Of a stretch of DNA of 64,000 nucleotides, positions 20,617-41,706 are shown piece after piece. Every line of letters starts with the position of its first letter. The first letter of the stretch is position 1. The stretch comes from Plasmopara viticola (taxonomy: Eukaryota; Oomycota; Peronosporomycetes; Peronosporales; Peronosporaceae). The translations under genes and the position numbers were made by a program. The DNA lies in assembly GCA_001695595.3 (NCBI GenBank), contig MBPM02000034.1, positions 372,001-436,000 of the forward strand, in the 5' to 3' direction. The notes beneath the pieces are model-generated. The model ran no database searches, was not told where the DNA came from, and saw nothing but the letters and a program-made list of their open reading frames with translations.

Positions 20617-23600
20617 ATGAGAACGACGCACGTGCTTGAATCTATTGTGGTTGTACTCCACGTGCTTTCTTTTATACAATTTTCAAGTGCAGCGTGTGCT
20701 AACTCGTGCTCGGGCCACGGTCGATGTGGCGCCTCCAAGTGCGTGCGACTGGTGTATGCTCAAGAAATTCGGAGCTTAGTAACGCTTTTGTATTGCAATG
20801 TAGCCAATGTACGTGTGAGGGTGACTGGGCAGTGGCGCCAGATTGCTCGATGCGAAAATGCCCCATGGGAGTGGCTTGGACTGACAAGGCCAGAACGACG
20901 AATGTGGCTCATGCGCCGGCCGAGTGCTCGAACCGTGGAGTATGCGATTATACCAAGGTAAGCGTTTGCAGCACGTAGCGTGTAGCGTATTAAATGTTAG
21001 ACACGACGGTTTATGCTTACGTATTGCACGCAGGGAGAGTGCACGTGCTTTGATGGATATACAGGAGCTGCTTGTCAACGACGTGCGTGCAATCGGATTG
21101 ACAATTGAGCAACAGTATTCCTTACAATACATTAAATATTGGTTTTCCATAGTCCGTTGCCCATCAGATTGTTCAGGCCATGGAACTTGCTACTCGTCTG
21201 CCACTTTAGCGTTGCAGTACGGTCCTGATGCACCTTCAGGGGTTGCTGGCGACGGTATAGGACCTGTTTACTCGAATTGGGAGAAAGACAGCATGTCGAG
21301 TTGCATGTGTGATATGGGCTACACAGGACCTGATTGCTCTCAATGTACGTTCCAAGTGTCATGCGTTTTCATAAAACATGTTTAACATTGTATTTGCAGT
21401 CATGTGTGCAAAGAACGACGATCCTCTCACAACGGGTCAGGTACATCGTCAGATTCAGATTCAAGTCGATGCAGACGCGTCCTTAAATCTTGCGCTCGCT
21501 GGCTCGGTGCAAGTGCGTTTTCTTGGAGATGTTGTAGTATTCGATGCCGTTGCAGTTGCCACGACTGCTCACGAACAGGCGTGTGCCCAGGCTTTCATGA
21601 CATTGCGAACTGTTTTGATAGCTTCTTGTACGATCACGAACGTTGACCCAGTGACCGCAGGAGCGACATACACCGTGACTTTTGAAGAATGGGTTCATCT
21701 GGGTGGAGAAAACAACTTGCTGTATCACAATGGCAATCCACCGTTAGCGAGTTTTTCATGTGATTTGACCAAAGTAACAAGTCTCAACTCGCCCACATGT
21801 GCGATAAGTGATGTCACGACCGCAAATGTCATCGGTAAGCTCCTGTCACAGCCTTGCCTTTTCTCCTTTTAATGAAGTAGAATGTGACCGTGTGTGTTGT
21901 CTTTAAGAGCACGAGTATTGCTCGAACCGAGGTCTTTGTGACTTTACTACAGGACAATGTATGTGCTATGCCGACTTCAAGGGACTAGATTGCAATCAGC
22001 CATCTAACATTCCGGACAGTATTGACGACAATGATGGCTTTCTTATCAATCCGATGGGACTCACATATACCGGCACCGTTCTGCACTTGAAAACTGCGAA
22101 AGGCTCACAAGCTGACTTTAACTTTCTAGCGATTGAGTCATCAACATTGCCAATTCTAATCATGAATGGAGTCGGGGATACAAAACTTTTGAACGGGAAT
22201 TTCGAGCTAACAACCGGCTCGATGACGATCGCTACTATTGCACAAACAGTAGCAGCGGCGGATATTGCGAATACTCATGCAACATTTACAGGCACTGCCT
22301 TGAAAGTCCGAACGACTAGATCGTCAAATAATGCATTTAAATTACTTGAAGCGATGACTGGAGGTTCAAACACAGTCGTTGAGATTCGTGGGGACGGTCT
22401 GACCACCATTTATACTGGCGGACTTAATGTCGTGACGGGAGGAGGAACGATCTCTCATACACTTGATGCCCCAAGCCTCATTGTAGCAAACTCGTATGGT
22501 TCGTTTAGTACATCGCTTTTGAAACTCGCGACATCGCGACCAAGCCTATTTCCGAGCGCATCTGATTTCATTCTCATTGAAGCTTCTGCAAGCAATGTAC
22601 CAGCATTCACCGTGGAAGCTTCTGGACGGACGACAATTGGTAATGGTGGCCTTGTCGTAACTGGTTTAGGAGGAGCACAAATTTTCAACGGGGATCCTGC
22701 CTCGCCTGCACTTGTCGTACATGCTACGGACACAAGTTTTAGTGGCGATGCGGTCGCTCTTCAAACATTTTCCAGCGTGGCTCACAAAATGCTAAAAGTG
22801 ACAACAAAAGTCGGTAGCAATGCACCAATTGACCTAGTTGACATCAGCAATTCTGGACTTACGACTATCACGCAAGGGGGGCTTCACGTCGTAGCAGGAG
22901 GAGCTACTATCGATACGGGCGGACTCCATGTAGGGTATGGTGGTGGGACGATCGACAATGGAGGACTACGCATTAAAAATGGGGGCGAAATAATCGAGTC
23001 GGGTGGACTTGATGTCGTTGACGGCGGCGGGACAATTGCGTCAACTTCGTCTGTGGCGGACGTTTTTACCATTGAGGCAACTTCTACTTCATTCTCCAAC
23101 AATGCAAGGTTATTGTACATCAACTCCAAATCGACTGTTCCCCCTTCGACGAGCATACATTATCTCATTGAAGCAACAGTTGGAGCCTCATCCACCTCCG
23201 TTTTCAAGGTGGACGCAACTGGCCTTACCACGGTGGCTGGCCAAGGCAAAGGTGGAGCGATCATTTCTGACAAAGCCGCTGACACGACAAGTACGATTTC
23301 CGTGACCAATTCGGCGAGTTCAGGATTTGCTGGTTCACTTTTGTCCATGAGTGCAGTGTCGTCAGATCAGCTGTATACATTCATCGATGGAAAAGCAAGT
23401 GGTACGTCTGTCTTTAAAGTGGATGCAACCGGGCTCACCACGATCGAAGGCCAAGGAAGTGGTGGTGTAAGCATCTCTGATAACTCTGCCGCCCTTAATA
23501 CCCTTTCAGTATTCAACAGGATCGCAACAGGCTTCACGGGCGCGTTGTTGTCGATAGATGCCGTTTCAACGAGCAAGGTTTACACGCTGATTGATGCTCA

Positions 23601-26600
23601 GTCGAGTGGCACATCACGATTTATAGTTGCCGCGAGTGGCTTGACTACGATTATTGGTAGTGGTAGTGGCGGGGTCAGTATTTCGGACTCCAATGCAGCC
23701 ACAACTAGTACTCTTACTGTTCAAAATACCGATCTATCGCGAACGTTTTCAGGCACACTCCTCGAATTAGACACGACAGCATTACAATCAACCGACAGCT
23801 TCTCCCTCATTAATGCCAAAGTCCTCACGGTTTCTAAGTTTCGAGTAGACGCATCAGGGCTAACAACAATAAGTGCCGGCGGTCTCAGCGTTATTGGTGG
23901 AATTGCAGCAGTCGATACCGGCGTCACGGTTACTACGGGTGGAGCAAGAATCTACGACACCGGCACATCCGCCGACACACTTATCGTCATGAACAAGGCG
24001 GCAACTGGACCTTTTACGAATGCGCTGCTTACGGTAGACACCACAGCACTGACCACTGGATTCTCGCTCATTGACGCCAAAGTGGCCGGGGTGTCGCAGT
24101 TTACCATCACGGCGGGCGGACGGACAACAATCGTATCTGGTGGACTCACAGTCACGGCAGGCGGGGCGATTATTACAGCGGGTGGACTTACAGTCACTGC
24201 AGGTGGAGCAACTATTACGGCCGGTGGACTTACCGTCACTGCGGGAGGAGCCAACGTTGGTGGTGGGCTTACCGTTGCAGGCGGAGTTACTGTGTCAAAT
24301 ACTGGACTGACGGTCTCCGGAGGTGGAGCTACTATCACTGGCGGCATCACAGCTGTCGATACCGGCGTCACTGTCACTACGGGCGGAGCAAGAATCTACG
24401 ACACCGGCACATCCGCCGACACACTTATCGTCATGAACAAGGCGGCAACTGGACCTTTTACGAATGCGCTGCTTGCGGTAGACACCACAGCACTGATAAC
24501 TGGATTCTCGCTCATTGACGCCAAAGTGGCCGGGGTATCGCAGTTTACCATCACGGCGGGCGGACGGACAACAATCGTATCTGGTGGACTCACAGTCACG
24601 GCAGGCGGGGCGATTATCACAGCGGGCGGACTGACCGTCACAGCAGGTGGAGCAACTATTACGGCCGGCGGACTTACCGTCACTGCGGGAGGAGCCAACG
24701 TTGGTGGTGGGCTTACCGTTGCAGGCGGAGTTACTGTGTCAAATACTGGACTGACGGTCTCCGGAGGTGGAGCTACTATCACTGGCGGCATCACAGCTGT
24801 CGATACCGGCGTCACTGTTACTACGGGCGGAGCAAGAATCTACGACACCGGCACATCCGCCGACACACTTATCGTCATGAACAAAGCGGCAACTGGACCT
24901 TTTACGAATGCGCTGCTTACAGTAGACACCACAGCACTGACCACTGGATTCTCGCTCATTGACGCCAAAGTGGCCGGGGTGTCGCAGTTTACCATCACGG
25001 CGGGCGGACGGACAACAATCGTATCTGGTGGACTCACAGTCACGGCAGGCGGGGCGATTATCACAGCGGGCGGACTGACCGTCACAGCAGGTGGAGCAAC
25101 TATTACGGCCGGCGGACTTACCGTCACTGCGGGAGGAGCCAACGTTGGTGGTGGGCTTACCGTTGCAGGCGGAGTTACTGTGTCAAATACCGGACTGACG
25201 GTCTCCGGAGGTGGAGCTACTATCACTGGCGGCATCACAGCTGTCGATACCGGCGTCACTGTCACTACGGGCGGAGCAAGAATCTACGACACCGGCACAT
25301 CCGCCGACACACTTATCGTCATGAACAAGGCGGCAACTGGACCTTTTACGAATGCGCTGCTTACGGTAGACACCACAGCACTGACCACTGGATTCTCGCT
25401 CATTGACGCCAAAGTGGCCGGGGTGTCGCAGTTTACCATCACGGCGGGCGGACGGACAACAATCGTATCTGGTGGACTCACAGTCACGGCAGGCGGGGCG
25501 ATTATTACAGCGGGTGGACTTACAGTCACTGCAGGTGGAGCAACTATTACGGCCGGTGGACTTACCGTCACTGCGGGAGGAGCCAACGTTGGTGGTGGGC
25601 TTACCGTTGCAGGCGGAGTTACTGTGTCAAATACTGGACTGACGGTCTCCGGAGGTGGAGCTACTATCACTGGCGGCATCACAGCTGTCGATACCGGCGT
25701 CACTGTCACTACGGGCGGAGCAAGAATCTACGACACCGGCACATCCGCCGACACACTTATCGTCATGAACAAGGCGGCAACTGGACCTTTTACGAATGCG
25801 CTGCTTGCGGTAGACACCACAGCACTGATAACTGGATTCTCGCTCATTGACGCCAAAGTGGCCGGGGTATCGCAGTTTACCATCACGGCGGGCGGACGGA
25901 CAACAATCGTATCTGGTGGACTCACAGTCACGGCAGGCGGGGCGATTATCACAGCGGGCGGACTGACCGTCACAGCAGGTGGAGCAACTATTACGGCCGG
26001 CGGACTTACCGTCACTGCGGGAGGAGCCAACGTTGGTGGTGGGCTTACCGTTGCAGGCGGAGTTACTGTGTCAAATACTGGACTGACGGTCTCCGGAGGT
26101 GGAGCTACTATCACTGGCGGCATCACAGCTGTCGATACCGGCGTCACTGTTACTACGGGCGGAGCAAGAATCTACGACACCGGCACATCCGCCGACACAC
26201 TTATCGTCATGAACAAAGCGGCAACTGGACCTTTTACGAATGCGCTGCTTACAGTAGACACCACAGCACTGACCACTGGATTCTCGCTCATTGACGCCAA
26301 AGTGGCCGGGGTGTCGCAGTTTACCATCACGGCGGGCGGACGGACAACAATCGTATCTGGTGGACTCACAGTCACGGCAGGCGGGGCGATTATCACAGCG
26401 GGCGGACTGACCGTCACAGCAGGTGGAGCAACTATTACGGCCGGCGGACTTACCGTCACTGCGGGAGGAGCCAACGTTGGTGGTGGGCTTACCGTTGCAG
26501 GCGGAGTTACTGTGTCAAATACTGGACTGACGGTCTCCGGAGGTGGAGCTACTATCACTGGCGGCATCACAGCTGTCGATACCGGCGTCACTGTCACTAC

Positions 26601-29600
26601 GGGCGGAGCAAGAATCTACGACACCGGCACATCCGCCGACACACTCATCGTCATGAACAAGGCGGCAACTGGACCTTTTACGAATGCGCTGCTTACGGTA
26701 GACACCACAGCACTGACCACTGGATTCTCGCTCATTGACGCCAAAGTGGCCGGGGTGTCGCAGTTTACCATCACGGCGGGCGGACGGACAACAATCGTAT
26801 CTGGTGGACTCACAGTCACGGCAGGCGGGGCGATTATTACAGCGGGTGGACTTACCGTCACTGCAGGTGGAGCCAACGTTGGTGGTGGGCTTACCGTTGC
26901 AGGCGGAGTTACTGTGTCAAATACTGGACTGACGGTCTCCGGAGGTGGAGCTACTATCACTGGCGGCATCACAGCTGTCGATACCGGCGTCACTGTCACT
27001 ACGGGCGGAGCAAGAATCTACGACACCGGCACATCCGCCGACACACTTATCGTCATGAACAAGGCGGCAACTGGACCTTTTACGAATGCGCTGCTTACGG
27101 TAGACACCACAGCACTGACCACTGGATTCTCGCTCATTGACGCCAAAGTGGCCGGGGTGTCGCAGTTTACCATCACGGCGGGCGGACGGACAACAATCGT
27201 ATCTGGTGGACTCACAGTCACGGCAGGCGGGGCGATTATTACAGCGGGTGGACTTACCGTCACTGCAGGTGGAGCCAACGTTGGTGGTGGGCTTACCGTT
27301 GCAGGCGGAGTTACTGTGTCAAATACTGGACTGACGGTCTCCGGAGGTGGAGCTACTATCACTGGCGGCATCACAGCTGTCGATACCGGCGTCACTGTCA
27401 CTACGGGCGGAGCAAGAATCTACGACACCGGCACATCCGCCGACACACTTATCGTCATGAACAAGGCGGCAACTGGACCTTTTACGAATGCGCTGCTTAC
27501 GGTAGACACCACAGCACTGACCACTGGATTCTCGCTCATTGACGCCAAAGTGGCCGGGGTGTCGCAGTTTACCATCACGGCGGGCGGACGGACAACAATC
27601 GTATCTGGTGGACTCACAGTCACGGCAGGCGGGGCGATTATCACAGCGGGCGGACTGACCGTCACAGCAGGTGGAGCAACTATTACGGCCGGCGGACTTA
27701 CCGTCACTGCGGGAGGAGCCAACGTTGGTGGTGGGCTTACCGTTGCAGGCGGAGTTACTGTGTCAAATACTGGACTGACGGTCTCCGGAGGTGGAGCTAC
27801 TATCACTGGCGGCATCACAGCTGTCGATACCGGCGTCACTGTCACTACGGGCGGAGCAAGAATCTACGACACCGGCACATCCGCCGACACACTTATCGTC
27901 ATGAACAAGGCGGCAACTGGACCTTTTACGAATGCGCTGCTTACGGTAGACACCACAGCACTGACCACTGGATTCTCGCTCATTGACGCCAAAGTGGCCG
28001 GGGTGTCGCAGTTTACCATCACGGCGGGCGGACGGACAACAATCGTATCTGGTGGACTCACAGTCACGGCAGGCGGGGCGATTATCACAGCGGGCGGACT
28101 GACCGTCACAGCAGGTGGAGCAACTATTACGGCCGGCGGACTTACCGTCACTGCGGGAGGAGCCAACGTTGGTGGTGGGCTTACCGTTGCAGGCGGAGTT
28201 ACTGTGTCAAATACTGGACTGACGGTCTCCGGAGGTGGAGCTACTATCACTGGCGGCATCACAGCTGTCGATACCGGCGTCACTGTCACTACGGGCGGAG
28301 CAAGAATCTACGACACCGGCACATCCGCCGACACACTTATCGTCATGAACAAGCGGCAACTGGACCTTTTACGAATGCGCTGCTTACGGTAGACACCACA
28401 GCACTGACCACTGGATTCTCGCTCATTGACGCCAAAGTGGCCGGGGTGTCGCAGTTTACCATCACGGCGGGCGGACGGACAACAATCGTATCTGGTGGAC
28501 TCACAGTCACGGCAGGCGGGGCGATTATCACAGCGGGCGGACTGACCGTCACAGCAGGTGGAGCAACTATTACGGCCGGCGGACTTACCGTCACTGCGGG
28601 AGGAGCCAACGTTGGTGGTGGGCTTACCGTTGCAGGCGGAGTTACTGTGTCAAATACCGGACTGACGGTCTCCGGAGGTGGAGCTACTATCACTGGCGGC
28701 ATCACAGCTGTCGATACCGGCGTCACTGTCACTACGGGCGGAGCAAGAATCTACGACACCGGCACATCCGCCGACACACTTATCGTCATGAACAAGGCGG
28801 CAACTGGACCTTTTACGAATGCGCTGCTTACGGTAGACACCACAGCACTGACCACTGGATTCTCGCTCATTGACGCCAAAGTGGCCGGGGTGTCGCAGTT
28901 TACCATCACGGCGGGCGGACGGACAACAATCGTATCTGGTGGACTCACAGTCACGGCAGGCGGGGCGATTATCACAGCGGGCGGACTGACCGTCACAGCA
29001 GGTGGAGCAACTATTACGGCCGGCGGACTTACCGTCACTGCGGGAGGAGCCAACGTTGGTGGTGGGCTTACCGTTGCAGGCGGAGTTACTGTGTCAAATA
29101 CTGGACTGACGGTCTCCGGAGGTGGAGCTACTATCACTGGCGGCATCACAGCTGTCGATACCGGCGTCACTGTCACTACGGGCGGAGCAAGAATCTACGA
29201 CACCGGCACATCCGCCGACACACTTATCGTCATGAACAAGCGGCAACTGGACCTTTTACGAATGCGCTGCTTACGGTAGACACCACAGCACTGACCACTG
29301 GATTCTCGCTCATTGACGCCAAAGTGGCCGGGGTGTCGCAGTTTACCATCACGGCGGGCGGACGGACAACAATCGTATCTGGTGGACTCACAGTCACGGC
29401 AGGCGGGGCGATTATCACAGCGGGCGGACTGACCGTCACAGCAGGTGGAGCAACTATTACGGCCGGCGGACTTACCGTCACTGCGGGAGGAGCCAACGTT
29501 GGTGGTGGGCTTACCGTTGCAGGCGGAGTTACTGTGTCAAATACCGGACTGACGGTCTCCGGAGGTGGAGCTACTATCACTGGCGGCATCACAGCTGTCG

Positions 29601-32600
29601 ATACCGGCGTCACTGTCACTACGGGCGGAGCAAGAATCTACGACACCGGCACATCCGCCGACACACTTATCGTCATGAACAAGGCGGCAACTGGACCTTT
29701 TACGAATGCGCTGCTTACGGTAGACACCACAGCACTGACCACTGGATTCTCGCTCATTGACGCCAAAGTGGCCGGGGTGTCGCAGTTTACCATCACGGCG
29801 GGCGGACGGACAACAATCGTATCTGGTGGACTCACAGTCACGGCAGGCGGGGCGATTATCACAGCGGGCGGACTGACCGTAGCAGCAGGTGGAGCAATTA
29901 TTACGGCCGGCGGACTTACCGTCACTGCGGGAGGAGCCAACGTTGGTGGTGGGCTTACTGTTGCAGGCGGAGTTACTGTGTCAAATACCGGACTGACGGT
30001 CTCCGGAGGTGGAGCTACTATCACTGGCGGCATCACAGCTGTCGATACCGGCGTCACTGTCACTACGGGCGGAGCAAGAATCTACGACACCGGCACATCC
30101 GCCGACACACTTATCGTCATGAACAAGGCGGCAACTGGACCTTTTACGAATGCGCTGCTTACGGTAGACACCACAGCACTGACCACTGGATTCTCGCTCA
30201 TTGACGCCAAAGTGGCCGGGGTGTCGCAGTTTACCATCACGGCGGGCGGACGGACAACAATCGTATCTGGTGGACTCACAGTCACGGCAGGCGGGGCGAT
30301 TATTACAGCGGGTGGACTTACCGTCACTGCAGGTGGAGCCAACGTTGGTGGTGGGCTTACCGTTGCAGGCGGAGTTACTGTGTCAAATACTGGACTGACG
30401 GTCTCCGGAGGTGGAGCTACTATCACTGGCGGCATCACAGCTGTCGATACCGGCGTCACTGTCACTACGGGCGGAGCAAGAATCTACGACACCGGCACAT
30501 CCGCCGACACACTTATCGTCATGAACAAGGCGGCAACTGGACCTTTTACGAATGCGCTGCTTACGGTAGACACCACAGCACTGACCACTGGATTCTCGCT
30601 CATTGACGCCAAAGTGGCCGGGGTGTCGCAGTTTACCATCACGGCGGGCGGACGGACAACAATCGTATCTGGTGGACTCACAGTCACGGCAGGCGGGGCG
30701 ATTATCACAGCGGGCGGACTGACCGTCACAGCAGGTGGAGCAACTATTACGGCCGGCGGACTTACCGTCACTGCGGGAGGAGCCAACGTTGGTGGTGGGC
30801 TACCGTTGCAGGCGGAGTTACTGTGTCAAATACCGGACTGACGGTCTCCGGAGGTGGAGCTACTATCACTGGCGGCATCACAGCTGTCGATACCGGCGTC
30901 ACTGTTACTACGGGCGGAGCAAGAATCTACGACACCGGCACATCCGCCGACACACTTATCGTCATGAACAAGGCGGCAACTGGACCTTTTACGAATGCGC
31001 TGCTTACGGTAGACACCACAGCACTGACCACTGGATTCTCGCTCATTGACGCCAAAGTGGCCGGGGTGTCGCAGTTTACCATCACGGCGGGCGGACGGAC
31101 AACAATCGTATCTGGTGGACTCACAGTCACGGCAGGCGGGGCGATTATTACAGCGGGTGGACTTACCGTCACTGCAGGTGGAGCCAACGTTGGTGGTGGG
31201 CTTACCGTTGCAGGCGGAGTTACTGTGTCAAATACTGGACTGACGGTCTCCGGAGGTGGAGCTACTATCACTGGCGGCATCACAGCTGTCGATACCGGCG
31301 TCACTGTCACTACGGGCGGAGCAAGAATCTACGACACTGGCACATCCGCCGACACACTTATCGTCATGAACAAGGCGGCAACTGGACCTTTTACGAATGC
31401 GCTGCTTACGGTAGACACCACAGCACTGACCACTGGATTCTCGCTCATTGACGCCAAAGTGGCCGGGGTGTCGCAGTTTACCATCACGGCGGGCGGACGG
31501 ACAACAATCGTATCTGGTGGACTCACAGTCACGGCAGGCGGGGCGATTATCACAGCGGGCGGACTGACCGTCACAGCAGGTGGAGCAACTATTACGGCCG
31601 GCGGACTTACCGTCACTGCGGGAGGAGCCAACGTTGGTGGTGGGCTTACCGTTGCAGGCGGAGTTACTGTGTCAAATACTGGACTGACGGTCTCCGGAGG
31701 TGGAGCTACTATCACTGGCGGCATCACAGCTGTCGATACCGGCGTCACTGTTACTACGGGCGGAGCAAGAATCTACGACACCGGCACATCCGCCGACACA
31801 CTTATCGTCATGAACAAGGCGGCAACTGGACCTTTTACGAATGCGCTGCTTACGGTAGACACCACAGCACTGACCACTGGATTCTCGCTCATTGACGCCA
31901 AAGTGGCCGGGGTGTCGCAGTTTACCATCACGGCGGGCGGACGGACAACAATCGTATCTGGTGGACTCACAGTCACGGCAGGCGGGGCGATTATTACAGC
32001 GGGTGGACTTACCGTCACTGCAGGTGGAGCCAACGTTGGTGGTGGGCTTACCGTTGCAGGCGGAGTTACTGTGTCAAATACTGGACTGACGGTCTCCGGA
32101 GGTGGAGCTACTATCACTGGCGGCATCACAGCTGTCGATACCGGCGTCACTGTCACTACGGGCGGAGCAAGAATCTACGACACCGGCACATCCGCCGACA
32201 CACTTATCGTCATGAACAAGGCGGCAACTGGACCTTTTACGAATGCGCTGCTTACGGTAGACACCACAGCACTGACCACTGGATTCTCGCTCATTGACGC
32301 CAAAGTGGCCGGGGTGTCGCAGTTTACCATCACGGCGGGCGGACGGACAACAATCGTATCTGGTGGACTCACAGTCACGGCAGGCGGGGCGATTATCACA
32401 GCGGGCGGACTGACCGTCACAGCAGGTGGAGCAACTATTACGGCCGGCGGACTTACCGTCACTGCGGGAGGAGCCAACGTTGGTGGTGGGCTTACCGTTG
32501 CAGGCGGAGTTACTGTGTCAAATACCGGACTGACGGTCTCCGGAGGTGGAGCTACTATCACTGGCGGCATCACAGCTGTCGATACCGGCGTCACTGTTAC

Positions 32601-35600
32601 TACGGGCGGAGCAAGAATCTACGACACCGGCACATCCGCCGACACACTTATCGTCATGAACAAGGCGGCAACTGGACCTTTTACGAATGCGCTGCTTACG
32701 GTAGACACCACAGCACTGACCACTGGATTCTCGCTCATTGACGCCAAAGTGGCCGGGGTGTCGCAGTTTACCATCACGGCGGGCGGACGGACAACAATCG
32801 TATCTGGTGGACTCACAGTCACGGCAGGCGGGGCGATTATTACAGCGGGTGGACTTACCGTCACTGCAGGTGGAGCCAACGTTGGTGGTGGGCTTACCGT
32901 TGCAGGCGGAGTTACTGTGTCAAATACTGGACTGACGGTCTCCGGAGGTGGAGCTACTATCACTGGCGGCATCACAGCTGTCGATACCGGCGTCACTGTC
33001 ACTACGGGCGGAGCAAGAATCTACGACACCGGCACATCCGCCGACACACTTATCGTCATGAACAAGGCGGCAACTGGACCTTTTACGAATGCGCTGCTTA
33101 CGGTAGACACCACAGCACTGACCACTGGATTCTCGCTCATTGACGCCAAAGTGGCCGGGGTGTCGCAGTTTACCATCACGGCGGGCGGACGGACAACAAT
33201 CGTATCTGGTGGACTCACAGTCACGGCAGGCGGGGCGATTATCACAGCGGGCGGACTGACCGTCACAGCAGGTGGAGCAACTATTACGGCCGGCGGACTT
33301 ACCGTCACTGCGGGAGGAGCCAACGTTGGTGGTGGGCTTACCGTTGCAGGCGGAGTTACTGTGTCAAATACTGGACTGACGGTCTCCGGAGGTGGAGCTA
33401 CTATCACTGGCGGCATCACAGCTGTCGATACCGGCGTCACTGTCACTACGGGCGGAGCAAGAATCTACGACACCGGCACATCCGCCGACACACTTATCGT
33501 CATGAACAAGGCGGCAACTGGACCTTTTACGAATGCGCTGCTTACGGTAGACACCACAGCACTGACCACTGGATTCTCGCTCATTGACGCCAAAGTGGCC
33601 GGGGTGTCGCAGTTTACCATCACGGCGGGCGGACGGACAACAATCGTATCTGGTGGACTCACAGTCACGGCAGGCGGGGCGATTATTACAGCGGGTGGAC
33701 TTACCGTCACTGCAGGTGGAGCCAACGTTGGTGGTGGGCTTACCGTTGCAGGCGGAGTTACTGTGTCAAATACTGGACTGACGGTCTCCGGAGGTGGAGC
33801 TACTATCACTGGCGGCATCACAGCTGTCGATACCGGCGTCACTGTTACTACGGGCGGAGCAAGAATCTACGACACCGGCACATCCGCCGACACACTTATC
33901 GTCATGAACAAAGCGGCAACTGGACCTTTTACGAATGCGCTGCTTACGGTAGACACCACAGCACTGACCACTGGATTCTCGCTCATTGACGCCAAAGTGG
34001 CCGGGGTGTCGCAGTTTACCATCACGGCGGGCGGACGGACAACAATCGTATCTGGTGGACTCACAGTCACGGCAGGCGGGGCGATTATCACAGCGGGCGG
34101 ACTGACCGTCACAGCAGGTGGAGCAACTATTACGGCCGGCGGACTTACCGTCACTGCGGGAGGAGCCAACGTTGGTGGTGGGCTACCGTTGCAGGCGGAG
34201 TTACTGTGTCAAATACCGGACTGACGGTCTCCGGAGGTGGAGCTACTATCACTGGCGGCATCACAGCTGTCGATACCGGCGTCACTGTTACTACGGGCGG
34301 AGCAAGAATCTACGACACCGGCACATCCGCCGACACACTTATCGTCATGAACAAGGCGGCAACTGGACCTTTTACGAATGCGCTGCTTACGGTAGACACC
34401 ACAGCACTGACCACTGGATTCTCGCTCATTGACGCAAAAGTGGCCGGGGTGTCGCAGTTTACTATCACGGCGGGCGGACGGACAACAATCGTATCTGGTG
34501 GACTCACAGTCACGGCAGGCGGGGCGATTATTACAGCGGGTGGACTTACCGTCACTGCAGGTGGAGCCAACGTTGGTGGTGGGCTTACCGTTGCAGGCGG
34601 AGTTACTGTGTCAAATACTGGACTGACGGTCTCCGGAGGTGGAGCTACTATCACTGGCGGCATCACAGCTGTCGATACCGGCGTCACTGTTACTACGGGC
34701 GGAGCAAGAATCTACGACACCGGCACATCCGCCGACACACTTATCGTCATGAACAAGGCGGCAACTGGACCTTTTACGAATGCGCTGCTTACGGTAGACA
34801 CCACAGCACTGACCACTGGATTCTCGCTCATTGACGCCAAAGTGGCCGGGGTGTCGCAGTTTACCATCACGGCGGGCGGACGGACAACAATCGTATCTGG
34901 TGGACTCACAGTCACGGCAGGCGGGGCGATTATTACAGCGGGTGGACTTACCGTCACTGCAGGTGGAGCCAACGTTGGTGGTGGGCTTACCGTTGCAGGC
35001 GGAGTTACTGTGTCAAATACTGGACTGACGGTCTCCGGAGGTGGAGCTACTATCACTGGCGGCATCACAGCTGTCGATACCGGCGTCACTGTCACTACGG
35101 GCGGAGCAAGAATCTACGACACCGGCACATCCGCCGACACACTTATCGTCATGAACAAGGCGGCAACTGGACCTTTTACGAATGCGCTGCTTACGGTAGA
35201 CACCACAGCACTGACCACTGGATTCTCGCTCATTGACACCAAAGTGGCCGGGGTGTCACAGTTTACCATCACGGCGGGCGGACGGACAACAATCGTATCT
35301 GGTGGACTCACAGTCACGGCAGGCGGGGCGATTATCACAGCGGGCGGACTGACCGTCACAGCAGGTGGAGCAACTATTACGGCCGGCGGACTTACCGTCA
35401 CTGCGGGAGGAGCCAACGTTGGTGGTGGGCTTACCGTTGCAGGCGGAGTTACTGTGTCAAATACTGGACTGACGGTCTCCGGAGGTGGAGCTACTATCAC
35501 TGGCGGCATCACAGCTGTCGATACCGGCGTCACTGTCACTACGGGCGGAGCAAGAATCTACGACACCGGCACATCCGCCGACACACTTATCGTCATGAAC

Positions 35601-38600
35601 AAGGCGGCAACTGGACCTTTTACGAATGCGCTGCTTACGGTAGACACCACAGCACTGACCACTGGATTCTCGCTCATTGACGCCAAAGTGGCCGGGGTGT
35701 CGCAGTTTACCATCACGGCGGGCGGACGGACAACAATCGTATCTGGTGGACTCACAGTCACGGCAGGCGGGGCGATTATTACAGCGGGTGGACTTACCGT
35801 CACTGCAGGTGGAGCCAACGTTGGTGGTGGGCTTACCGTTGCAGGCGGAGTTACTGTGTCAAATACTGGACTGACGGTCTCCGGAGGTGGAGCTACTATC
35901 ACTGGCGGCATCACAGCTGTCGATACCGGCGTCACTGTTACTACGGGCGGAGCAAGAATCTACGACACCGGCACATCCGCCGACACACTTATCGTCATGA
36001 ACAAGGCGGCAACTGGACCTTTTACGAATGCGCTGCTTACGGTAGACACCACAGCACTGACCACTGGATTCTCGCTCATTGACACCAAAGTGGCCGGGGT
36101 GTCGCAGTTTACCATCACGGCGGGCGGACGGACAACAATCGTATCTGGTGGACTCACAGTCACGGCAGGCGGGGCGATTATCACAGCGGGCGGACTGACC
36201 GTCACAGCAGGTGGAGCAACTATTACGGCCGGCGGACTTACCGTCACTGCGGGAGGAGCCAACGTTGGTGGTGGGCTAACCGTTGCAGGCGGAGTTACTG
36301 TGTCAAATACCGGACTGACGGTCTCCGGAGGTGGAGCTACTATCACTGGCGGCATCACAGCTGTCGATACCGGCGTCACTGTTACTACGGGCGGAGCAAG
36401 AATCTACGACACCGGCACATCCGCCGACACACTTATCGTCATGAACAAGGCGGCAACTGGACCTTTTACGAATGCGCTGCTTACGGTAGACACCACAGCA
36501 CTGACCACTGGATTCTCGCTCATTGACGCAAAAGTGGCCGGGGTGTCGCAGTTTACTATCACGGCGGGCGGACGGACAACAATCGTATCTGGTGGACTCA
36601 CAGTCACGGCAGGCGGGGCGATTATTACAGCGGGTGGACTTACCGTCACTGCAGGTGGAGCCAACGTTGGCGGTGGGCTTACCGTTGCAGGCGGAGTTAC
36701 TGTGTCAAATACTGGACTGACGGTCTCCGGAGGTGGAGCTACTATCACTGGCGGCATCACAGCTGTCGATACCGGCGTCACTGTTACTACGGGCGGAGCA
36801 AGAATCTACGACACCGGCACATCCGCCGACACACTTATCGTCATGAACAAGGCGGCAACTGGACCTTTTACGAATGCGCTGCTTACGGTAGACACCACAG
36901 CACTGACCACTGGATTCTCGCTCATTGACGCCAAAGTGGCCGGGGTGTCGCAGTTTACCATCACGGCGGGCGGACGGACAACAATCGTATCTGGTGGACT
37001 CACAGTCACGGCAGGCGGGGCGATTATCACAGCGGGCGGACTTACCGTCACAGCAGGTGGAGCAACTATTTCGGCCGGCGGACTTACCGTCACTGCGGGA
37101 GGAGCCAACGTTGGTGGTGGGCTTACCGTTGCAGGCGGAGTTACTGTGTCAAATACCGGACTGACGGTCTCCGGAGGTGGAGCTACTATCACTGGCGGCA
37201 TCACAGCTGTCGATACCGGCGTCACTGTTACTACGGGCGGAGTAAGAATCTACGACACCGGCACATCCGCCGATACACTTATCGTCATGAACAAAGCGGC
37301 AACTGGACCTTTTACGAATGCGCTGCTTACGGTAGACACCACAGCACTGACCACTGGATTCTCGCTCATTGACGCCAAAGTGGCCGGGGTGTCGCAGTTT
37401 ACCATCACGGCGGGCGGACGGACAACAATCGTATCTGGTGGACTCACAGTCACGGCAGGCGGGGCGATTATCACAGCGGGTGGACTGACCGTCACAGCAG
37501 GTGGAGCAACTATTACGGCCGGCGGACTTACCGTCACTGCGGGAGGAGCCAACGTTGGTGGTGGGCTTACCGTTGCAGGCGGAGTTACTGTGTCAAATAC
37601 TGGACTGACGGTCTCCGGAGGTGGAGCTACTATCACTGGCGGCATCACAGCTGTCGATACCGGCGTCACTGTCACTACGGGCGGAGCAAGAATCTACGAC
37701 ACCGGCACATCCGCCGACACACTTATCGTCATGAACAAGGCGGCAACTGGACCTTTTACGAATGCGCTGCTTACGGTAGACACCACAGCACTGACCACTG
37801 GATTCTCGCTCATTGACGCCAAAGTGGCCGGGGTGTCGCAGTTTACCATCACGGCGGGCGGACGGACAACAATCGTATCTGGTGGACTCACAGTCACGGC
37901 AGGCGGGGCGATTATCACAGCGGGCGGACTGACCGTCACAGCAGGTGGAGCAACTATTACGGCCGACGGACTTACCGTCACTGCGGGAGGAGCCAACGTT
38001 GGTGGTGGGCTTACCGTTGCAGGCGGAGTTACTGTGTCAAATACCGGACTGACGGTCTCCGGAGGTGGAGCTACTATCACTGGTGGCATCACAGCTGTCG
38101 ATACCGGCGTCACTGTCACTACGGGCGGAGCAAGAATCTACGACACCGGCACATCCGCCGACACACTTATCGTCATGAACAAGGCGGCAACTGGACCTTT
38201 TACGAATGCGCTGCTTACGGTAGACACCACAGCACTGACCACTGGATTCTCGCTCATTGACGCCAAAGTGGCCGGGGTGTCGCAGTTTACCATCACGGCG
38301 GGCGGACGGACAACAATCGTATCTGGTGGACTCACAGTCACGGCAGGCGGGGCGATTATTACAGCGGGTGGACTTACCGTCACTGCAGGTGGAGCCAACG
38401 TTGGTGGTGGGCTTACCGTTGCAGGCGGAGTTACTGTGTCAAATACTGGACTGACGGTCTCCGGAGGTGGAGCTACTATCACTGGCGGCATCACAGCTGT
38501 CGATACCGGCGTCACTGTTACTATGGGCGGAGCAAGAATCTACGACACCGGCACATCCGCCGATACACTTATCGTCATGAACAAGGCGGCAACTGGACCT

Positions 38601-40436
38601 TTTACGAATGCGCTGCTTACGGTAGACACCACAGCACTGACCACTGGATTCTCGCTCATTGACACCAAAGTGGCCGGGGTGTCACAGTTTACCATCACGG
38701 CGGGCGGACGGACAACAATCGTATCTGGTGGACTCACAGTCACGGCAGGCGGGGCGATTATCACAGCGGGCGGACTGACCGTCACAGCAGGTGGAGCAAC
38801 TATTACGGCCGGCGGACTTACCGTCACTGCGGGAGGAGCCAACGTTGGTGGTGGGCTAACCGTTGCAGGCGGAGTTGCTGTGTCAAATACCGGACTGACG
38901 GTCTCCGGAGGTGGAGCTACTATCACTGGCGGCATCACAGCTGTCGATACCGGCGTCACTGTTACTACGGGCGGAGCAAGAATCTACGACACCGGCACAT
39001 CCGCCGATACACTTATCGTCATGAACAAGGCGGCAACTGGACCTTTTACGAATGCGCTGCTTACGGTAGACACCACAGCACTGACCACTGGATTCTCGCT
39101 CATTGACGCCAAAGTGGCCGGGGTGTCGCAGTTTACCATCACGGCGGGCGGACGGACAACAATCGTATCTGGTGGACTCACAGTCACGGCAGGCGGGGCG
39201 ATTATCACAGCGGGCGGACTGACCGTCACAGCAGGTGGAGCAACTATTACGGCCGACGGACTTACCGTCACTGCGGGAGGAGCCAACGTTGGTGGTGGGC
39301 TTACCGTTGCAGGCGGAGTTACTGTGTCAAATACCGGACTGACGGTCTCCGGAGGTGGAGCTACTATCACTGGCGGCATCACAGCTGTCGATACCGGCGT
39401 CACTGTTACTACGGGCGGAGCAAGAATCTACGATTCCGGCACGACCGCCGATACGCTCACAGTCTTAAACGCAGCATCATCTGGAACATTTTCGGACGCT
39501 CTTTTGCGGTTGGACACAAGCTCGTTGACATCTGGATTTTTTCTGATGACCGCATCTGTAGCTGGTGGATCGCCAAAATTTTCAGTGGCGGCAACAGGAT
39601 TTACTACAATAGCTGCTGGAGGTCTGAGTGTCACGGGTGGAGTAACTATTACCGACACTGGACTTACCGTGACTGCTGGAGGTGCGAGTATTACGGATAC
39701 TGGCACTACAAGCAGCACCTTGACGCTACGGAACTCGGCCAGCGTTTTCGACAAAGCGCTGCTTTCTATCGACTCAACTGCAACTAGTGGCTTTGCGATC
39801 ATTGATGCAATGGTTGGTGGCACATCCCAGTTCACTGTGACAGCGGGCGGTGCAACGACCATAGCCTCTGGTGGACTTAGCGTAAAGGGCGGCGTGACTG
39901 TCGTGGACACTGGCGTCACAGTGTCGGTAGGAGACGTCCTCATCTCAAGTAATACCCAATCAGGAGCGACCAATACTGGTGCTTTAGTTGTAGCGGGTGG
40001 CGTTGGGATAGGGCTCGATCTTCGCTGTGGTGGCACCATCTATGGCACGGTTGTTACTTCATCCGATCGGCGCCTTAAGACAACGATACGAGATCTCACA
40101 TCGTCACAAAAAGTCATCAAACAGCTTCGTCCGGTGCGTTTATTTAATGCTGTCGAACCTTTCCCGCTCTGTACCTAATTTCCTTCTTGCGTGTGTCAGG
40201 TAACGTATGAATGGCGGCGTGACAAGTTTCCGTCCCGCAATTTTCCAATTGGTACATTTCCAGGCTTCCTTGCCGACGAAGTGGAACAGATATTGCCAAC
40301 CTTGGTGGAAGAGGACGGTGACGGCTGGAAGTCGTTAAATTACGTCGGAATCATTCCGCACTTAACGCGCGCCCTGCAAGAAATGCAAGACGAACTTAAG
40401 GTTCTTCGGCAGCAGATTAAGCAATTGCAAGGTTAA
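20617..40436 (+). CDS. giant secreted EGF-headed tandem-repeat fibre protein with C-terminal Peptidase_S74 intramolecular chaperone, 7 exons
   Basis: Exons are 20617-20738, 20804-20957, 21034-21082, 21153-21344, 21400-21834, 21908-40133 and 40200-40436. Introns are 55-76 nt, GT..AG, and each was placed by frame and conserved cysteines. A signal peptide (about 1-26) precedes EGF-like modules (CSGHGRC, CTCEGDW, CSNRGVC, CTCFDGYTG, CSGHGTC, CMCDMGYTGPDC) and a 145-aa domain in exon 5. A last EGF module opens exon 6. About 670 residues of diverged Gly/Thr-rich repeats lead into a 36-unit array (about 993-6152) that lacks Cys. The end is a Peptidase_S74 domain: SSDRRLK with the Ser-Lys dyad at 40062-40064 and 40077-40079, RPVTYEW across the last intron, GFLADEVEQILPTLVEE, SLNYVGIIP, then a short coiled coil. 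Four single-base deletions (about 28353, 29240, 30801 and 34184) break the frame as given. Adding one base at each gives exactly 6,473 codons. Unrepaired, translation stops at 28392. Role inferred: a trimeric extracellular or surface fibre. Confidence 0.85.
22040..23930 (+). repeat. diverged upstream copies of the fibre repeat
   Basis: In-frame, non-identical copies of the module later homogenised in the array. Each has a beta-rich segment ending in a Phe-x-Val-x-Ala-x-Gly-Leu-Thr-Thr-Ile type motif (VFKVDATGLTTV, VFKVDATGLTTIE, RFIVAASGLTTII, KFRVDASGLTTIS) followed by Gly-Gly-x-x-V/I steps. Spacing varies, about 65-130 residues. They look like the ancestral, uncorrected state of the array. 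Confidence 0.8.
24000..26663 (+). repeat. 1,332-nt higher-order duplication (units 1-3 copied as units 4-6)
   Basis: Unit 2 and unit 5 share the same private variants (CTTGCGGTAG, CTGATAACTGG, GGGGTATCGC). Units 3 and 6 share AACAAAGCGGC and CTTACAGTAG. The offset is exactly three units (1,332 nt), and the copies differ at very few sites (for example AATACCGG versus AATACTGG). This indicates a recent block duplication of three units. Confidence 0.85.
28350..28356 (+). other. frameshift 1 in fibre array (one G lost)
   Basis: AACAAGCGGCAACTGG here replaces AACAAGGCGGCAACTGG of the other units. The reading frame then ends at 28392 in a 12-residue out-of-frame tail. The array resumes intact in the next frame. 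Confidence 0.9.
29237..29243 (+). other. frameshift 2 in fibre array (same G lost)
   Basis: The identical single-base loss as at about 28353 (AACAAGCGGC), 887 nt downstream, which is two long units minus one base. It shifts the frame again, with the out-of-frame ORF ending at 29279. Confidence 0.9.
30798..30804 (+). other. frameshift 3 in fibre array (one T lost)
   Basis: GTGGGCTACCGTTGC replaces GTGGGCTTACCGTTGC of other units, moving the coding frame once more. The out-of-frame ORF ends at 30841. Confidence 0.9.
34181..34187 (+). other. frameshift 4 in fibre array (same T lost)
   Basis: The identical T loss as at about 30801, exactly 3,383 nt downstream (four long-short pairs minus one base). 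After this site the frame runs uninterrupted through the rest of the array into the S74 domain. Confidence 0.9.
39421..40030 (+). repeat. diverged downstream copies of the fibre repeat
   Basis: Two decayed in-frame versions of the module follow the last canonical unit: ARIYDSGTTADTLTVLN, then a second copy with SITDTGTTSSTLTLRNSAS and SQFTVTAGGATTI. Like the upstream flank, they mark the edge of the homogenised core and form the neck before the S74 domain. Confidence 0.8.
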
Positions 40437-40470
40437 ATCGCTTAAAACCGCCATTAAAATTAACTTGAAG

Positions 40471-40480: not shown

Positions 40481-40494
40481 TCTTTCGTTAAAGA

Positions 40495-41706
40495 ATGACA
40501 AGCAGCTTGGAACGTGCGCTGTTGGCACTGGTATTAGGCGCTGCGTTCGCAGTGTGCGGTTTCTACTGTGGCAAGTTGGTAGTTTGCCGCCGTCCAAAGA
40601 GTCTTGCAGCCTTACAACTGAGCGCAGCGCCTCGTGTGCTGCTTTCGGAGCTGCAAAACTCAAACCGTTGGGTGGCGCTGTGTGGCACGGTATTCGATGT
40701 GGCTGGAGACCCCTTTTTCGACCCACAGCGGGGAGGTCTATACAGCCATTGGGTAGGACATGATGTCACGACGCTAATTTTACAGTTGGGACTCGTACCG
40801 GACGCTGCGGACGATGCGGAAGCGGTTGCGAGCTATTTGGATTGCGAGCTGTCGTTGGATGCACTGCAGGGCAACGAAGAGGCTGAAAAGCGACGGTTTG
40901 AGCTTGTCCAGGAGTGGTTTATACGTTTGCACTCGCGCTATGAGGTGGTGGCTCAGCTAAGCGACCGCTATATTGGTGAAAAGTGGGTGATGCTCAGAGC
41001 AGAGCTTTTGCCACCAGATGCCAAACAAAGTTCTGGCGGAAAGTGTCCACTGGGATTTGGCGCGAAGACCGTAAGCAAGGTGGTGACTTGTAGTGTGGAA
41101 GAAATGAAGAACAAGCGGACGATAGTGTTTCAAGGACGACACTATGATGTGACGGACTCGAGCTTGTTTCACCCGAAGGATGGACAGTTTGCGCATTTTG
41201 TTGGACACGATGTCACCTACGCGTTGGCGATGCAATCTGTTTGCGAAGACGATTTAGATAGGATGCCTGAGCGGGCGTATACGTTTGAGGAACAAAAGCT
41301 ATTGGAGAGATACCGAAATTTTTTTGCACGTGAGCTAGTGCTTCTGGAAGTTGTGGGTGAACAGAAGGAGAAGGGCAGTACGACGGAGACTGTGAACGTG
41401 CACCAGATTATTGAAGGAAGTGACAGGATGACTCGGGAAGAGGGTGTTGATTGCCTGAAGCAAGTTCTTGATAAAGCAAGTGCGGAGCAAGTAAATGCAA
41501 TTTGTGCTCGCACGACGATGACTCCACTACACAAGGCTGTGGAAAAACACAGGCTGGATCTCGTTGAGGAATTGGTACGAGCCGGAGCTGATCTTGAGGC
41601 GCGTGCACCACTTTACGACGACGAGACGCCAGTGCAAATGGCTCAACGCTTCCACTTTAACGATATTGCCGCGCACTTGCAATCCCTTGCCGTGGGCACC
41701 AGCTAA
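40495..41706 (+). CDS. membrane-anchored tandem cytochrome-b5-like (MAPR) and ankyrin protein
   Basis: 403 aa, ATG at 40495, no intron. One N-terminal transmembrane helix (about 6-28, rich in Leu/Ala/Val) resembles the anchor of the membrane-associated progesterone receptor (MAPR) family. Two cytochrome-b5-like folds follow: residues about 48-165, with WVALCGTVFDVAGDPFFDPQ and YSHWVGHDVT, and about 200-290, with IVFQGRHYDVTDSSLFHPKD and FAHFVGHDVT. The GxVFDV / F-x-P / G-HDVT pattern is the MAPR heme-site scaffold. The C-terminus has at least one clear ankyrin repeat (TPLHKAVEKHRLDLVEELVR) and a second partial one. MAPR proteins bind heme and modulate sterol-related P450 enzymes in the ER. 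Two MAPR domains plus ankyrin repeats in one chain is unusual. Heme binding is not demonstrated here. Confidence 0.75.
   Translation: MTSSLERALLALVLGAAFAVCGFYCGKLVVCRRPKSLAALQLSAAPRVLLSELQNSNRWVALCGTVFDVAGDPFFDPQRGGLYSHWVGHDVTTLILQLGLVPDAADDAEAVASYLDCELSLDALQGNEEAEKRRFELVQEWFIRLHSRYEVVAQLSDRYIGEKWVMLRAELLPPDAKQSSGGKCPLGFGAKTVSKVVTCSVEEMKNKRTIVFQGRHYDVTDSSLFHPKDGQFAHFVGHDVTYALAMQSVCEDDLDRMPERAYTFEEQKLLERYRNFFARELVLLEVVGEQKEKGSTTETVNVHQIIEGSDRMTREEGVDCLKQVLDKASAEQVNAICARTTMTPLHKAVEKHRLDLVEELVRAGADLEARAPLYDDETPVQMAQRFHFNDIAAHLQSLAVGTS

Follow-up and report, generated by a model that had tools for sequence, protein, structure and literature searches.

A Plasmopara viticola gene joining a mastigoneme-type head to a phage-type Peptidase_S74 chaperone: a candidate flagellar-hair fibre

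Phage tail fibres, such as the long tail fibre 6f45, the L-shaped fibre of T5 (4uw8) and endosialidase (3gw6), have a beta fibre that ends C-terminally in an S74 domain, recognised by its sequence or fold and its Ser/Lys dyad. We know of no phage S74 tail fibre that has an EGF head or introns. The same S74 or intramolecular chaperone auto-processing (ICA) fold is found in MYRF and MrfA, transcription factors with DNA-binding and membrane domains (PMC3742443), and the autocleavage dyad has been placed at S911/K916 in endoNF and S587/K592 in MyRF (PMC8326128). Surface fibres made by a cell are known from the MAT fibres of Bdellovibrio, where 13 of 21 have S74 and self-cleavage was shown at S782 (PMC10769870), while polinton-like viruses bear C-terminal S74 on long modular fibres. 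There it is described as ubiquitous in the viruses of most groups of eukaryotes, with ochrophytes, parabasalids and amoebozoans as the exceptions (PMC12220804). Here we describe a gene in a 64,000-nucleotide stretch of Plasmopara viticola DNA (assembly GCA_001695595.3, contig MBPM02000034.1, positions 372,001 to 436,000 of the forward strand; the window) in which S74 ends a long repeat fibre headed by a relative of tubular mastigoneme subunits. In contrast to the phage and polinton-like-virus fibres this gene does not appear to be viral, and unlike the bacterial MAT fibres, which have a conserved beta domain of ~130 residues after the signal peptide, it begins with an EGF-rich head.

Open reading frame (ORF) listing and splicing place the fibre gene at 20617-40437, with seven exons, six introns and ~6,470 codons. 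A first-pass annotation had assigned 39960..40436 to the chaperone; the domain does lie there, but that interval covers the neck and chaperone only. The features of the gene are:

20617-20738, plus strand: exon 1, hydrophobic signal-peptide-like N-terminus and start of the first EGF (gene model, hydropathy)
20804-20957, plus strand: exon 2, EGF-like repeats of the mastigoneme-type head (gene model, Pfam, PDB match)
21034-21082, plus strand: exon 3, head (gene model)
21153-21344, plus strand: exon 4, head, EGF-like (gene model, Pfam, head search)
21400-21834, plus strand: exon 5, domain between EGF repeats, aligned to 9UFE chain BA
21908-40133, plus strand: large exon of 18.2 kb, coding for the final EGF, the unique shaft, the tandem array, the neck and the beginning of S74
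23906-39454, plus strand: tandem array, units of 148 or 134 residues (444 or 402 bases)
28300-34301, plus strand: stretch with the four one-base-short units, where the assembled frame is lost
39960-40061, plus strand: neck, TGALVVAGGVGIGLDLRCGGTIYG (sequence comparison)
40062-40133, plus strand: first part of Peptidase_S74 (PF13884), predicted cleavage just before the Ser codon 40062-40064; Lys codon 40077-40079
40134-40199, plus strand: last intron, 66 bases, GTGCGT..CAG (splicing)
40200-40437, plus strand: last exon, remainder of S74 (ending at 40307), C-terminal helix and stop codon (40435-40437)

The joining of the last exon to the array exon is borne out indirectly, as the predicted proteins of Phytophthora cactorum, P. 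idaei and P. pseudosyringae (P0012-P0014) read continuously through the same point.

The identity of the C-terminal domain was examined by profile searches. The spliced sequence of 136 residues matches PF13884 at E 7.7e-12 over residues 35-94 (40062-40133 plus 40200-40307), and its score of 45.8 bits, against a curated cut-off of 22, places it in the family; the S74/ICA fold is supported as well. A PHROG search returned 44 families at E<=1, the best at 3e-18, with 'tail' given for 21 among the 25 listed. Further support is provided by PDB matches to the phage long tail fibre 6f45 (9.8e-8) and a second tail fibre, 8jov (1.8e-5), and by a weak match to MYRF chain 7dc3 (0.015); the only other match at E<=1, to a splicing protein of yeast (0.38), we regard as noise. 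The phage-type domain announced by the first-pass annotation was thus recovered, together with the motifs it listed (SDRRLK, RPVTYEW, GFLADEVEQILPTLVEE, SLNYVGIIP), a C-terminal helix, which also appears in the predicted model of an orthologue, and the dyad, with Ser (40062-40064) and Lys (40077-40079) five residues apart in SDRRLK. Both dyad residues are kept in 35 of 37 sequences that combine head and S74, namely 35 database proteins collected with a custom head profile (several of them near copies from P. fragariae isolates), the window gene and a second P. viticola gene, C206. Of 193 proteins fetched, 22 that are fibre-like and not from oomycetes also contain the neck motif. The S74 identity of the domain lies far above chance and we consider it practically certain.

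At the other end of the gene, a hydrophobic, signal-peptide-like N-terminus (hydropathy 1.99 across 19 residues) agrees with the proposal that the protein is secreted, as a prediction, and is followed by five EGF stretches detected by Pfam (PF23106 E 1.1e-19). Together with the repeat array these correspond to the EGF head and Gly/Thr repeat shaft that had been noticed upstream of S74. Residues 1-324 of the 329-residue head align to 344 of the 366 residues of 9UFE chain BA at E 1.7e-39, and PDB searches with the P. cactorum orthologue and then with the window head each gave six matches at E<=0.001, all of them 9UFE chains, whose names (tubular mastigoneme protein, OCM3, OCM5, OCM6) are the depositors' labels. 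The head is very probably of the mastigoneme type. In P. parasitica the three known mastigoneme proteins have a signal peptide, three to four EGF and no transmembrane segment, and were found in the membrane fraction of flagella but not in that of cell bodies (PMC12223298). Mastigonemes are missing from Ectocarpus mutants of MAS1, a shaft protein (as told in PMC13109109), and are carried by P. viticola zoospores (review, PMC9130769).

The window gene shares the EGF-rich head of the 9UFE subunits (OCM3, OCM5, OCM6 and others), matching chain BA from one end to the other, but also differs from them. The six matched chains have 209-748 residues and no S74 match, whereas here the head is followed by a shaft and S74, and we therefore class the product as a head-bearing paralogue rather than a tube subunit. 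A head search of the genome gave 18 exon matches, including the window's own. Two of these loci are nearer to 9UFE than the window gene is to any chain (C18 to chain BA, 1.7e-54; C71 to chain AA, 2.9e-68), and tube-type subunits therefore have separate genes here.

The combination of head and S74 is not confined to P. viticola. Searches for relatives, which scored only the best word-sharing candidates among proteins of 0.55-1.75 times the query length, gave 26 and 55 matches and found it in Phytophthora, Paraphysomonas imperforata (P0019), another chrysophyte (P0068) and many unnamed environmental proteins, labelled in the databases as 'EGF-like', 'Peptidase S74', 'Intramolecular chaperone auto-processing domain' or hypothetical. 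The search for EGF plus S74 in other oomycetes that had been suggested was thus productive: orthologues from P. cactorum, P. idaei, P. pseudosyringae, P. fragariae and P. rubi (P0001-P0014, P0027) share head, shaft repeats and S74, except that P0001 shows S74 only, and P0001-P0014 are 63-80% identical across 85-99% of the C-terminal query. They differ in length, at 968-2,650 residues against ~6,470 codons, and the neck of P. fragariae and P. rubi is somewhat different. Within species, lengths range from 2,074 to 2,528 residues in P. fragariae and are 968, 1,202 and 2,650 in P. cactorum, reflecting either array variation or assembly. The flagellate-type proteins P0019 and P0022 have Cys-containing tails past the S74 helix (CACRDKNY, CSCRHKNN), unlike the oomycete chains. 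A second, short EGF-shaft-S74 gene, C206 (20500-30400, minus strand, L009), starts with a signal-like segment and an EGF-like stretch and contains an open frame of 916 residues that includes another EGF together with GG repeats and S74 (E 2.2e-13); its head is weakly like mastigoneme chains (1.9e-4) and matches the window head at 5.7e-10. The statement that no oomycete protein of this architecture had been described is weakly borne out for the literature, in that we found no such paper among the matches listed, but undescribed orthologues are present in databases, from other stramenopiles too. We found no literature on Peptidase S74 in oomycetes and, among the matches listed, no paper joining S74 with mastigonemes; subscription papers lay mostly outside the search, and both negatives are weak.

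Of the roles suggested earlier, flagellar hair is favoured by the end-to-end match of the head to a solved mastigoneme subunit, and nothing specific to an adhesive or a cyst coat was found. From its sequence, the product is probably a flagellar-hair component. The fuller reading, a secreted flagellar-hair fibre of the zoospore, likely the terminal filament, predicted to be trimeric and self-cutting, has an even chance at best. The chain would enter the secretory pathway by its hydrophobic N-terminus. As in phage and MYRF S74, the C-terminal helices would unite three chains, from where the shaft would fold into a trimeric beta fibre; in the trimer, the Ser and Lys would cut before the Ser, freeing a chaperone of 102 residues. 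The head, homologous along its length to a mastigoneme subunit, may anchor the fibre to the hair tube, the shaft would thus stick out from the hair tip, and the number of repeats would set the length of the fibre. We favour the terminal filament because filaments of this sort are known, the shaft is one long fibre and the head is of the right kind for docking to the tube. T4 fibres have 0.7 A per residue, at which the ~6,000 shaft residues would reach ~0.42 um. At the 0.4 A per residue of Bdellovibrio Bd2133 (142-150 A for 370 residues; PMC10769870) they would reach ~0.23 um. Terminal filaments of marine heterokonts, usually one or two, measure 0.3-0.4 um (PMC9310263), and tiny hairs are found on the mastigoneme tips of P. 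parasitica (PMC9068220); the sizes of shaft and filament are only roughly compatible.

Several observations weigh against this interpretation. The orthologues of 968-2,650 residues would give fibres far below 0.3 um, and a hydrophobic N-terminus passes the threshold applied in only 20 of the 34 head+S74 database proteins that start with Met, several of the 34 being truncated models. An AlphaFold2 monomer run had a mean predicted local distance difference test (pLDDT) score of 45, with no reliable model of shaft or head. PDB searches with the C-terminus and the orthologue matched no S74 chain in 9UFE. The match of the head to 9UFE is at the level of the family and not specific, because another head gene, C21, also fits 9UFE chains, if somewhat less well (1.3e-36 to OCM5). 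Finally, the array as assembled is not one open frame, being broken at four units, and most of the 256 head relatives at E<=0.001 (120 listed) have no known role, making head homology alone insufficient to assign a hair. With a family of this size not every member need be a hair subunit, and the product may instead be a trimeric S74 fibre, secreted and carrying a mastigoneme-type head, that serves as a non-tubular flagellar hair, an adhesive or a coat released at encystment. Bdellovibrio deploys surface S74 fibres against its prey (PMC10769870), and P. parasitica has a second, non-tubular type of hair of unknown function (PMC9068220). The only solved relatives of the head that we found are nonetheless mastigoneme chains, and flagellates that live freely, Paraphysomonas among them, have proteins of the same architecture. 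We regard such another use as possible, though the less favoured explanation.

The broken frame raises a further alternative, that the gene is dead or misassembled in this strain and no full-length fibre is made. Between head and S74 lies a unique shaft and then an array of 7/14-residue GGLTVTA-GGATITA repeats bounded by GG, with 37 anchors and 36 spacings (20 of 444, 12 of 402 and four of 443 bases). Each of the four 443-base units (28300-28742, 29187-29629, 30476-30918 and 33859-34301) shifts the frame. One-base gaps are common in PacBio assemblies, and sequencing error is a plausible source of the four found here. The published assembly, of 92.94 Mb in 358 scaffolds (N50 706,521, L50 38), is PacBio-derived (PMC9130769). 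Head, shaft start, neck and S74 are all open on either side of the array, and the Phytophthora predicted proteins P0002-P0014 are continuous through their shafts, which makes loss of the gene improbable.

We also considered whether the gene is viral, the S74 fibre of one of this genome's virus-like elements. The genome (358 contigs, 92,937,831 bases) has 71 S74 matches, and 17 of 20 fetched S74 stretches are AT-rich (38-42% GC; L012-L028, on contigs such as C13, C38, C66, C156 and C172). Repeated fibre-like and capsid-like ORFs are carried by 15 of the 17, and in one of them an ORF resembles a packaging ATPase (Pox_A32 E 1.3e-4, narrowly short of the cut-off); two of the capsid-like ORFs gave no Pfam match. 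By eye these stretches look like polinton-like virus elements, several copies being broken by stops. In a large FastTree, whose deep branches are weak, a weak set (0.59) unites the window clade with the S74 of the elements. In the S74 IQ-TREE, however, the S74 of four virus-like elements forms its own clade (93) with the window outside, and the window gene groups with Phytophthora and Aphanomyces at an ultrafast bootstrap (UFBoot) of 100 and more loosely (93) with five headless proteins. Consistent with the claim that the gene is host-encoded, it has six introns, a mastigoneme-type head, 49% GC outside the array and predicted Phytophthora orthologues, and a viral gene is very improbable. In the same tree C206 is placed with P0042, a protein of a bacterial metagenome bin (93), and most flagellate head+S74 rows fall elsewhere than the window clade; the comparison of single with repeated joining of S74 to heads gave p 0.059 in the approximately unbiased test. 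S74 occurs in 686 of 50,697 phage records at E<=0.001, and we leave the donor unnamed because the larger tree is poorly supported at depth. A separate locus, C98:152654-167578 (L010, L011), has one open frame of 4,975 residues at host-like GC with two internal S74, both SDRRIK, followed by Ser/Gly repeats; repeated internal S74, if active, would be an unusual arrangement.

A membrane-tethered transcription factor of the MYRF kind, for which the shared S74/ICA fold would speak, is highly improbable, as the pieces scanned (head, the 2,161-residue piece 21907-28389 and C-terminus) had no Pfam match to a DNA-binding domain, hydropathy past the dyad is at most 0.66, with no membrane segment, and the N-terminus is an EGF head. 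The neighbouring open frame at 40492-41706, starting ~55 bases past the stop of the fibre gene, has cytochrome-b5-like and ankyrin domains (PF00173 E 3.5e-7, PF00023 1.2e-4).

Cellular S74 is known from MYRF-type transcription factors and the fibres of a bacterial predator; here it stands at the end of a structural protein of a eukaryote, with a head from the flagellar-hair protein family that marks the stramenopiles. The gene provides a candidate for the terminal filaments, the composition of which is not stated in the portions of the literature examined, and its predicted self-cleavage would be testable by a single-residue change, Ser to Ala. More speculatively, and less likely than not, the tips of stramenopile flagellar hairs may be captured virus fibres, in which a mastigoneme subunit joined to a phage-type neck, shaft and S74 makes long (window gene) and short (C206) terminal filaments that cleave themselves outside any virus, S74 having been joined to heads more than once. 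The gene would add to the instances in which fibre machinery of the virus type has been taken over for the surface of a eukaryotic cell.
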